DNA of 64,000 nt from Bdellovibrionales bacterium (lineage in GTDB: Bacteria; Bdellovibrionota; Bdellovibrionia; Bdellovibrionales; UBA1609). This document shows positions 32,062-55,015 of this stretch, piece after piece (positions within the stretch are counted from its first letter, which is position 1; each line of letters starts with the position of its first letter). A program made the position numbers and the translations under genes. The stretch is from contig JAIBAM010000001.1 of assembly GCA_019695175.1 (NCBI GenBank), positions 1-64,000 of the forward strand. The letters are read 5' to 3'. The notes beneath the pieces were generated by a model. That model ran no database searches. It had not been told where the DNA came from and worked only from the letters and a program-made list of their open reading frames with translations.

Positions 32062-32907
32062 TTAGGCCACTCCAGAAAGTTGTTGCCAGAAAAATTGCAA
32101 ACTCCCTTTGGGTTCCTTAAGCTTTGGCAAACCATGGATTTCATTGACTAAGTTTAAGATACCACGACTCGACTGGGCCAAAGGATCGGTATGAACAATC
32201 ATTTGTTGCTTTTTTGTTGCTTGTCTCATTTTGGGATCATTAAGAATAAAACCTTTAAAATCCAAACTCACACACAAAAAACGATCCGCCACCTCTGCCA
32301 GCCGACGATAGGTTGATATTGCTTCCTCTTCATCGCGAACCAAATTCACCACAATTCCAAAATGGTTTTCATGAAATTTTTGCGTCAATACTTTTATGAG
32401 AGCGTAAGAATCGGTGATACTGGCTGGATCAGGCGTAACTACAACCAGAATATCTTGGGCCGCAGAATTTAAATAAAGCACATTTTCACTAATTCCAGAG
32501 GCCGTATCGATCAACAAATAGTTAAAAAAATGATCCATCTCGCTGACCTGTTCCAATAGTGATTTTTTTTGATGGGGGGCCAAATGGCTAAGTTGATAAA
32601 GTCCAGATCCTCCAGGGATCAAATACACATTCGGTGAAACCTCAAGTAAAATATCTTGTAATTTTTTTTCACAATTTAAAACATCAAATATTGTATGTTT
32701 ACTTTTTTTTCCGAAAATAATATCCACATTAGCTAAACCCAAATCACCGTCTAAGATTAAAACCTTTTGCCCTTTTTGTCCCAAACTGTAGGCTAAATTA
32801 GCGAGTAAAGTGGATTTACCAACACCCCCTTTTCCGGAAGTCACGCTAAGAGTTTGAGTTCGATTTCGTGTTGAATTTACTTCTAAAAATGAAGGGAAAT
32901 AGTGCAT
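32062..32907 (-). CDS. flhG: MinD-like ATPase FlhG (FleN), lacking the DQAxxLR activator motif
   Basis: A deviant Walker A ATPase that controls flagellar number together with FlhF. Walker A is SGKGGVGKSTL, the switch region is ILDGDLGLANVDIIFG and Walker B-like is YLLIDTASGIS. A C-terminal amphipathic helix may be present in GSLQFFWQQL. The start is firm: AGGAG lies upstream and an in-frame TGA is found 8 codons before the ATG. The N-terminus is therefore only MHYFPSFLEVNSTRNRTQT and contains no DQAxxLR sequence, the helix that stimulates FlhF GTPase in characterised FlhG. It starts 1 bp after the flhF stop. Confidence 0.93.
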   Translation of the reverse strand: MHYFPSFLEVNSTRNRTQTLSVTSGKGGVGKSTLLANLAYSLGQKGQKVLILDGDLGLANVDIIFGKKSKHTIFDVLNCEKKLQDILLEVSPNVYLIPGGSGLYQLSHLAPHQKKSLLEQVSEMDHFFNYLLIDTASGISENVLYLNSAAQDILVVVTPDPASITDSYALIKVLTQKFHENHFGIVVNLVRDEEEAISTYRRLAEVADRFLCVSLDFKGFILNDPKMRQATKKQQMIVHTDPLAQSSRGILNLVNEIHGLPKLKEPKGSLQFFWQQLSGVA

Positions 32908-53345: not shown

Positions 53346-54332
53346 ATGATGAAAGGAACTGATCCCGTGTCCTCACCCAGTCACACCTACCAGTTTGTCA
53401 GAGGTCAATTTGATTCTGACGCTGTTATTTTTGCGATTGGCGGCGGAAAGGGTGGAATAGGAAAATCTTTTATCAGTTCAAGTCTGGCTTTATTTTTAGC
53501 CCACATGGGCCATGAAACCTACCTAATTGATTTGGATTTAGGTTGCGCCAATATCCACACTTCCATTGGGGAACCTCTGCCGAAATTAGGAATCCATGAC
53601 TTTCTTAGTGATCCCTCCTTGTCAATAAAAGATGTTTCTGTACCCACAGCAATTCCCAATTTGAAATTGGTCGCTGGCAGCAGTGACATGTTAGAAACAG
53701 CAGATATTTCTGAATTCCAAAAATCAAGAATTATGGGTTCTTTGTATAAACTAAAAACAAAGTTTATTGTATTGGACTTAAGTGCTGGAACTCATCATTC
53801 CACATTAGACTTTTTTTTAATGGCTACAAATAAAATTGTTTTATTTACGCCAGAACCCTCCAGTATTGAAAATGCTTATCGTTTTTTAAAGGCTGCTTTC
53901 TATCGCAAAGTTCGCCGATTGGAAAACCAGTTGGAATTGACTGAGATGATTGCAGATTTAATGAGTCGCCGCGCTGAATACGGATTGAAATCACCTGGTG
54001 ATCTTCTAAAGGCAATTCAGAATAAAGATTTAGTTGCCGGTCAAAAACTCAACCGGATACTCAAGGATCTTCACCTCCACGTGATTCTCAATCAAGTACG
54101 AACTCTGAAAGATACGGACCTTGGACCATCAATAAAAGATGTTTGTGTTAAATATTTTGGTCTTCCCTTTAATTATCTAGGACACGTGGAACATGACAAT
54201 GCGGTTTGGCAGGCCTTACGAAATCGTAAGCATCTCCTGCTTGAATATCCTCACAGTAAAGTTTATGCCCAAATGATGAATATAACCAGAAATCTGGTGG
54301 CTCCTTATCTTAAACGGGATATGGTGGGATAA
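53346..54332 (+). CDS. MinD/FlhG-like ATPase paired with a J-domain/HTH protein
   Basis: A deviant Walker A ATPase of the MinD/ParA family distinct from the FlhG at 32062. Walker A is GGGKGGIGKSFISSSLALFL, the switch region is YLIDLDLGCANIHTSIGEP and the Walker B-like segment is FIVLDLSAGTHHSTLDFFLM. After residue 190 an insertion (AFYRKVRRLENQLELTEMIA, RRAEYGLKSPGDLLKAIQN) is absent from ordinary MinD. The ATG at 53346 is preferred to a TTG at 53325 that overlaps tsaB. The stop overlaps the next gene by 1 bp, so the two proteins are probably made together. Function unknown; spatial organisation or regulation of a membrane complex is a guess from the family. Confidence 0.82.
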   Translation: MMKGTDPVSSPSHTYQFVRGQFDSDAVIFAIGGGKGGIGKSFISSSLALFLAHMGHETYLIDLDLGCANIHTSIGEPLPKLGIHDFLSDPSLSIKDVSVPTAIPNLKLVAGSSDMLETADISEFQKSRIMGSLYKLKTKFIVLDLSAGTHHSTLDFFLMATNKIVLFTPEPSSIENAYRFLKAAFYRKVRRLENQLELTEMIADLMSRRAEYGLKSPGDLLKAIQNKDLVAGQKLNRILKDLHLHVILNQVRTLKDTDLGPSIKDVCVKYFGLPFNYLGHVEHDNAVWQALRNRKHLLLEYPHSKVYAQMMNITRNLVAPYLKRDMVG

Positions 54333-55015
54333 TGAAAAACACTGATAGCAAAAAATGGAACGAGTCGACTTTTTATGAACTCATTGAAGTGGATCCTCAA
54401 GCCAGTTCACGCGAGATTCATGCCGCCTACATGAGGGCTAAGCAGACATATTCCCCTGACAGTCCGGCCCTCTATACCATGTTTTCTCCAGAAGAAGCCC
54501 GTGAGCTTTCAAAACTGATTGAGGAAGCTTTTTTTACATTAAGCAATCAAAACCGCAGACAACAATATGATTTACAACTTGCACAGTCTGGTCACCCAAT
54601 TTTTTCCAATCTTCTTAAAGATGAGAAGAAGTCTAAAACGATGACCTCCCTCCATCCAATTTCTATAAATCCTGAACCCTCCCTTGTGACTTCTTCAAAA
54701 GTTCCAGCAGGTTATGGAAAAACAAAGTTTGGTGTTTACAAAGAAGATCCTGAATTTGAAAAACAGTTACAACAGCCTACTTTTTGCAATGGAGAGTTCT
54801 TACAAAAAATCAGAACATATAAAAATGTGAGCCTCGAACAATTAAGTGAAGAAACTCGTATTAGTAAATCCTACCTCTCAGCTTTAGAAGCAGATCGAAG
54901 GGATCAGTTGCCGGCACCGGTTTTTATTCGAGGGTTTGTACTTCAAGTAGCTCGTGCATTGATTGTATCCGATAAGCTTGCCGATGCTTACATGAAATCG
55001 ATTAGAAAAAATTAG
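54332..55015 (+). CDS. Fusion of a J-like domain (no HPD) with a RodZ-type helix-turn-helix
   Basis: Residues about 13-80 have the J-domain pattern (TFYELIEVDPQASSREIHAA, LIEEAFFTLSNQNRRQQYDL), but the loop that should read HPD is SPD (residues 41-43). Stimulation of a DnaK partner is therefore unlikely. A polar linker (80-150) leads to a Cro/RodZ-type HTH at about 154-212 (FLQKIRTYKNVSLEQLSEET, RISKSYLSALEADRRDQLPA). No membrane helix follows, unlike RodZ. The 227-residue gene is translationally coupled to the MinD-like ATPase, suggesting that the two proteins work together. Confidence 0.82.
   Translation: MKNTDSKKWNESTFYELIEVDPQASSREIHAAYMRAKQTYSPDSPALYTMFSPEEARELSKLIEEAFFTLSNQNRRQQYDLQLAQSGHPIFSNLLKDEKKSKTMTSLHPISINPEPSLVTSSKVPAGYGKTKFGVYKEDPEFEKQLQQPTFCNGEFLQKIRTYKNVSLEQLSEETRISKSYLSALEADRRDQLPAPVFIRGFVLQVARALIVSDKLADAYMKSIRKN

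Follow-up and report, generated by a model that had tools for sequence, protein, structure and literature searches.

The pairing of a MinD-like ATPase with a protein that joins a J-like domain to a RodZ-type helix-turn-helix (HTH) domain raises the question of what such proteins could do together, and why the J-like domain has no HPD motif. The two genes lie near the end of the window, the 64,000-nucleotide stretch that was analysed, and their features are collected in Table 1. The evidence is genomic throughout, the direct observations being the protein families, gene linkage, a single clade of ATPases, gene fusions, the pattern of ATPase loss and the decay of one motif.

Table 1. Features of the ATPase/J-HTH locus (positions are those of the window)
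Feature	Position	Strand	Description
ATPase gene	53346..54332	+	FlhG/FleN-type deviant Walker A ATPase, 328 aa; end includes TAA
Walker A region	53424..53483 (approximate)	+	GGKGGIGKS, signature lysine K35, P-loop K40
J-like/HTH_25 gene (J-HTH)	54332..55015	+	227 aa; ATG overlaps ATPase TAA by 1 bp
J-like domain without HPD	54371..54571	+	aa 14-80; PF00226, 40.2 bits; top PDB matches are J-domain folds
HPD-replacing segment	54452..54484	+	aa 41-51, SPDSPALYTMF; predicted short helix 45-50; proposed ATPase docking site
RodZ-type HTH domain (HTH_25)	54779..55012	+	aa 150-227; PF13413, 62.7 bits; S. aureus YmfM 3fym among PDB matches

The locus and its two proteins

The ATPase gene starts with the ATG at 53346 and stops with the TAA at 54330-54332, where the J-HTH gene begins. 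An ORF check of the coordinates confirms the one-base overlap (TAATG) reported in the initial annotation, a sign that translation of the two genes may be coupled. The gene tsaB (TIGR03725) lies upstream of the pair, and an RluA-family pseudouridine synthase gene followed by pgeF lies downstream. The placement between tsaB and rluD therefore stands, with the latter better called RluD-like, as RluD is its best equivalog at a score under that model's cut-off. A separate FlhG-type ATPase is encoded in the same window at 32389-32877 on the minus strand. A PADLOC search for defence systems gave weak generic matches only, and a role in defence was dropped on that ground.

The ATPase matches the ParA/CbiA families and carries their deviant Walker A motif. 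Among 28 homologues K35, K40, D62, D64 and D144 are invariant, as are G34-G37, G39 and K40 across the Walker A region. The best matches of its profile to solved structures are FlhG (4rz2, E 9.7e-35) and FleN (5j1j, E 1.5e-34), and a fold search with the model of a homologous natural fusion ranks FleN first and FlhG second. The ATPase thus appears closest to FleN/FlhG, with MinD next. It resembles FlhG/FleN in fold and sequence branch and retains the Walker A lysines and Asp residues, but its family has an insertion of ~50 residues after the PEPSSIENAYRF segment. Shortened ATPases of 262-263 aa, apparently without this insertion, occur in two genomes (L207:2916-3704 and L286), where the J-HTH motif is intact. 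The N-terminal DQAxxLR-type motif of FlhG/FleN acts on FlhF. A pattern search for a DQAxxLR-like motif was negative for the ATPase family and also for the FlhG-type copy of the source genome, so that the control failed. With MinD and ParA/Soj the ATPase shares the deviant Walker A fold and the invariant catalytic residues; its NCBIfam MinD equivalog score of 46 bits, however, is far under the cut-off of 212.9, and its adjoining partner is J-HTH rather than MinC/MinE or ParB.

J-HTH scores above the cut-offs of both of its domain families, which are 27.8 bits for DnaJ (PF00226) and 24.6 bits for HTH_25 (PF13413, matched at aa 157-210). Fold searches place J-domain structures on top, with weak E-values and a probability of 1.00. 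The AlphaFold2 model has pLDDT >90 for the HTH and for most of the J part, a low-confidence linker between them, and a short helix (45-50) at the place of the HPD loop. The linker is ~65 residues long in the source protein and nearly 400 in the J-HTH frame of Myxococcus xanthus (L259). The J fold, helices II to IV, is common to J-HTH and the J-domain proteins DnaJ, Sis1 and CbpA, whereas the extra short helix, with its A-x-Y-[ST] motif, distinguishes the J-HTH family; no zinc or C-terminal domains of the DnaJ kind were found in it. With RodZ (YfgA/YmfM) it has in common an HTH_25 domain with the LPAxVFxRGF segment of helix 4. In J-HTH this domain is C-terminal, behind the N-terminal J domain, where RodZ has it at the N terminus, and the membrane helix and periplasmic domain of RodZ are missing. 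The highest Kyte-Doolittle mean over 19 residues is 1.53 and the protein ends after the HTH, in agreement with the earlier description of a RodZ-type HTH without a membrane helix. Another HTH_25 protein of the source genome is its RodZ candidate (L261).

Canonical J domains dock Hsp70 via the HPD loop, and the HPD residues are needed to stimulate Hsp70. YSPDS of J-HTH aligns with YHPDK of Sis1, which puts SPD at the HPD position as first described. SPD is merely the commonest triplet there, found in 19 of the 115 homologues that have residues at all three positions. None of these 115 has H at the first position, and a further 84 rows, partly overlapping them, hold one HPQ and no HPD. HPD loss is an ancestral trait of the family; close relatives with an intact HPD were looked for among the homologues and none was seen, which rules out a peculiarity of the source sequence. 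The family instead conserves S-x-A-[LI]-Y-[ST]-x-F, and in separate-gene J-HTH proteins outside Bdellovibrionota Y48 is present in 52/53 and A46 in 50/53.

Distribution and linkage

The ATPase profile is matched in 241 of 290 Bdellovibrionota genomes at E 1e-45. The J-HTH profile is matched in 279 of the 290 at E <=1e-12, an upper bound, since RodZ HTHs alone can attain that E-value. The pair is near-universal in this phylum, and nearly every J-HTH locus sampled across its families has the ATPase gene next to it, usually in the order ATPase, J-HTH, rluD, pgeF. The family extends far beyond Bdellovibrionota: the pair is also present in Myxococcota (M. xanthus included), Acidobacteriota, Nitrospirota, Nitrospinota and SAR324. 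A codon-pattern scan turned up 100 loci in named genomes, many of them next to a J-HTH gene, in a sample skewed to GC-rich genomes by the pattern used (GC-rich codons for DLGxANLHTxLG). A check for genes that are unlinked and never co-occur found the opposite, linkage across several phyla. The neighbours in other phyla differ (ScpB, LptF/G) and have no common theme, so that no functional context can be taken from them.

In the ATPase tree, which is midpoint-rooted with the root falling on the FlhG row, one branch (99/93) contains all 59 linked rows together with 7 fused and 4 contig-edge rows, and no unlinked ones. Outside it are the unlinked ATPases of Spirochaetota, Verrucomicrobiota, Lentisphaerota, Fibrobacterota and some Myxococcota. 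R252 and R292 of the ATPase are conserved where J-HTH is a separate partner and less so in the unlinked and fused forms, which is a lead only. In a mirror-tree test the partial distance correlation given rluD is a modest 0.22, a weak signal.

Related ATPases with the GANLHT-type motif, for which no J-HTH neighbour was detected, were noted at eleven loci, in Spirochaetota, Verrucomicrobiota, Lentisphaerota (at the edges of contig stretches), Fibrobacterota and KSB1.

ATPase loss, motif decay and gene fusions

The ATPase has been lost and J-HTH retained in genus g19, families f5 and f7, genus g33 and one g38 genome, all within Bdellovibrionia. In nine such loci, fetched with wide flanks, J-HTH still lies between tsaB and rluD. 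The pair is therefore not obligate, and the treatment of the two genes as one obligate unit in the initial annotation has to be given up. Family f21 has an HTH_25-only protein of 107-134 aa (L205:3483-3806, L206:3842-4246) encoded away from tsaB-rluD, with neither a J domain nor an adjoining ATPase. Since the HTH is retained without the ATPase, and stands alone in f21, it has a use that is independent of the ATPase.

Loss of the ATPase leaves a mark on J-HTH. Across 68 conserved columns, compared between 66 J-HTH proteins with the ATPase and 16 without it, the four most decayed are 46, 49, 50 and 48; with four conserved columns drawn at random, the chance that they fall within 5 residues is 5e-5. 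Where the ATPase is present, 65/66 proteins have the strict motif intact, and where it is absent 2/16 do (Fisher p 8e-13, uncorrected for kinship). After ATPase loss the lineage-weighted conservation is 0.45 for the four columns, as against 0.89 for the rest of the J part and 0.94 for the HTH, so that what erodes selectively is the segment in place of HPD. The lineages of loss were counted by taxonomy and are partly dependent on one another, and they decay unevenly: g33 retains A46, f5 retains Y/F48, and the g38 genome retains all. In two ATPase-lost genomes (L202, L288) the motif is still present, perhaps reflecting recent losses.

Because the HPD-replacing helix follows the presence of the FlhG/FleN-type ATPase, it is likely that this ATPase is what the J-like domain docks, much as canonical J domains dock Hsp70. 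The decay of the motif upon ATPase loss thereby strengthens the earlier idea that the J-like domain serves as a docking module.

Natural fusions join the same parts. Six Myxococcota proteins (L150, L181, L253-L256) carry ATPase, J-like domain and HTH in one frame, and the AlphaFold2 model of a natural fusion, in which the ATPase and HTH domains are confident, has a pTM of 0.64. Five further Myxococcota fusions (L105, L137, L143, L167, L182) join ATPase and HTH without the J part; these are paralogues, because their genomes also have the standard pair. At least two fusion events are needed on the ATPase tree, which holds seven of the fusions. Only one of the six complete fusions has Y48, against nearly all of the separate genes outside Bdellovibrionota, and it appears that proteins in which docking would be covalent also mostly lose this residue.

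Possible roles of the pair

On balance we favour the view that the pair is a nucleotide-switch module composed of the ATPase, a docked J-like domain, and the HTH as output. The ATPase, a ParA/MinD protein of the FlhG/FleN branch, would probably cycle between an ATP-bound dimer and ADP or apo forms. The J-like domain would dock it via the short helix S-x-A-[LI]-Y-[ST]-x-F, the successor of the HPD loop, and so would have swapped the usual ATPase client of J domains, Hsp70, for a P-loop ATPase. The flexible linker would carry the RodZ-type HTH as the output end, which probably grips a protein partner by its conserved helix 4, and the ATPase may set the time or place at which the HTH engages its target. 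A protein target appears to fit better than DNA, given the RodZ-type sequence and helices 1 and 4, which are among the most conserved elements. Weighing against the switch module are the J-HTH genes that outlive the ATPase, the HTH-only protein of f21, the two ATPase-lost genomes with the motif, the differing neighbours in other phyla and the modest partial correlation. The fuller evolutionary proposal is more tentative, and we hold it slightly short of evenly balanced: the J domain would have changed its ATPase partner, rebuilt its Hsp70 loop as a docking helix and come to control the activity or dimerisation of an FlhG/FleN-type ATPase, and this change would have founded a switch module now present in several phyla.

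It is also possible, if unlikely, that the ATPase acts in the manner of ParA/MinD proteins and places J-HTH together with a cargo, such as a pilus or another polar machine. Membership of the ParA/MinD family and the RodZ type of the HTH are consistent with this, as is the distribution of PilT, which occurs in every pair-positive genome of a 53-genome panel and is missing, like the pair, from f14 and f21. Among the reduced f1 genomes, those that have the pair keep PilT type A, and those that lack it keep types B and C. This pattern fails across the phylum, however, since PilT occurs in family f19 and genus g81 although the pair does not, and type A is missing from genomes of f18, f20 and f22 that do have the pair, and the link to type IV pili was rejected because PilT types track the pair within f1 only. 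Nearly all genomes of the panel have MreB and MglA, irrespective of the pair, so that these are uninformative as linked processes, and no membrane-targeting C-terminal helix is evident in the ATPase by eye. The "positioning or assembly switch" of the initial annotation goes beyond what these data show, and a surface or polar apparatus, e.g. type IV pili, is a weak lead to the process served. The PilT paralogues of Bdellovibrionota (L210-L249) fall into distinct types.

A flagellar role is ruled out by four FliG-less genomes that retain the pair (G003, G015, G020, G022). Together with the other FlhG-type ATPase of the source genome (L062), these genomes support the earlier claim that the two proteins form a system apart from FlhF/FlhG, and the tsaB/rluD setting likewise differs from that of FlhG/FleN in having no association with flagellar genes.

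Transcription control of the FleN-FleQ kind, in which the HTH would bind DNA and the ATPase would be a co-regulator or antiactivator, is a rather unlikely reading. FleN is among the closest structures, including FleN-FleQ complexes, SinR is among the fold matches of the HTH, and the median net charge of the HTH is +3, compared with +1 for six sampled RodZ HTHs of the same genomes. The HTH is nevertheless of the RodZ type (HTH_25), conservation is lower in its recognition helix 3 than in helices 1 and 4, and the AAA+ domain of FleQ, where FleN binds, is missing.

The two genes could also be operon neighbours whose products do not interact, held together by the conserved housekeeping string tsaB-rluD-pgeF, but this is improbable given that linkage holds in phyla with other neighbours, that natural fusions exist and that ATPase loss is accompanied by decay of the motif. 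Least credible, and barely worth retaining, is a divergent Hsp70 co-chaperone still serving a DnaK paralogue, which would suit the PF00226 score and the J fold but not the lack of HPD throughout the family or a replacement motif that follows the MinD-like ATPase.

The ATPase/J-HTH pair, which is conserved in several phyla, appears not to have been described: no account of it was found in the open-licence literature searched. Bdellovibrio has three other ParA proteins, ParA1, ParA2 and ParA3 (Milner et al. 2020, PMC7186360), which belong to the same ParA/MinD superfamily and bacterial group. As far as the accessible part of that paper goes, their neighbours (a bolA homologue, bd2329 and parB) do not match the pair locus, and no mention of the ATPase/J-HTH pair was found in it.

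If true, the proposal would be a clear example of a J domain converted from serving Hsp70 to serving an unrelated ATPase, and it specifies the residues concerned. The docking hypothesis reduces to two residues and can be tested by point changes. The module itself is a widely conserved one of the ParA/MinD type, and it is present in the model organisms Bdellovibrio and Myxococcus xanthus.
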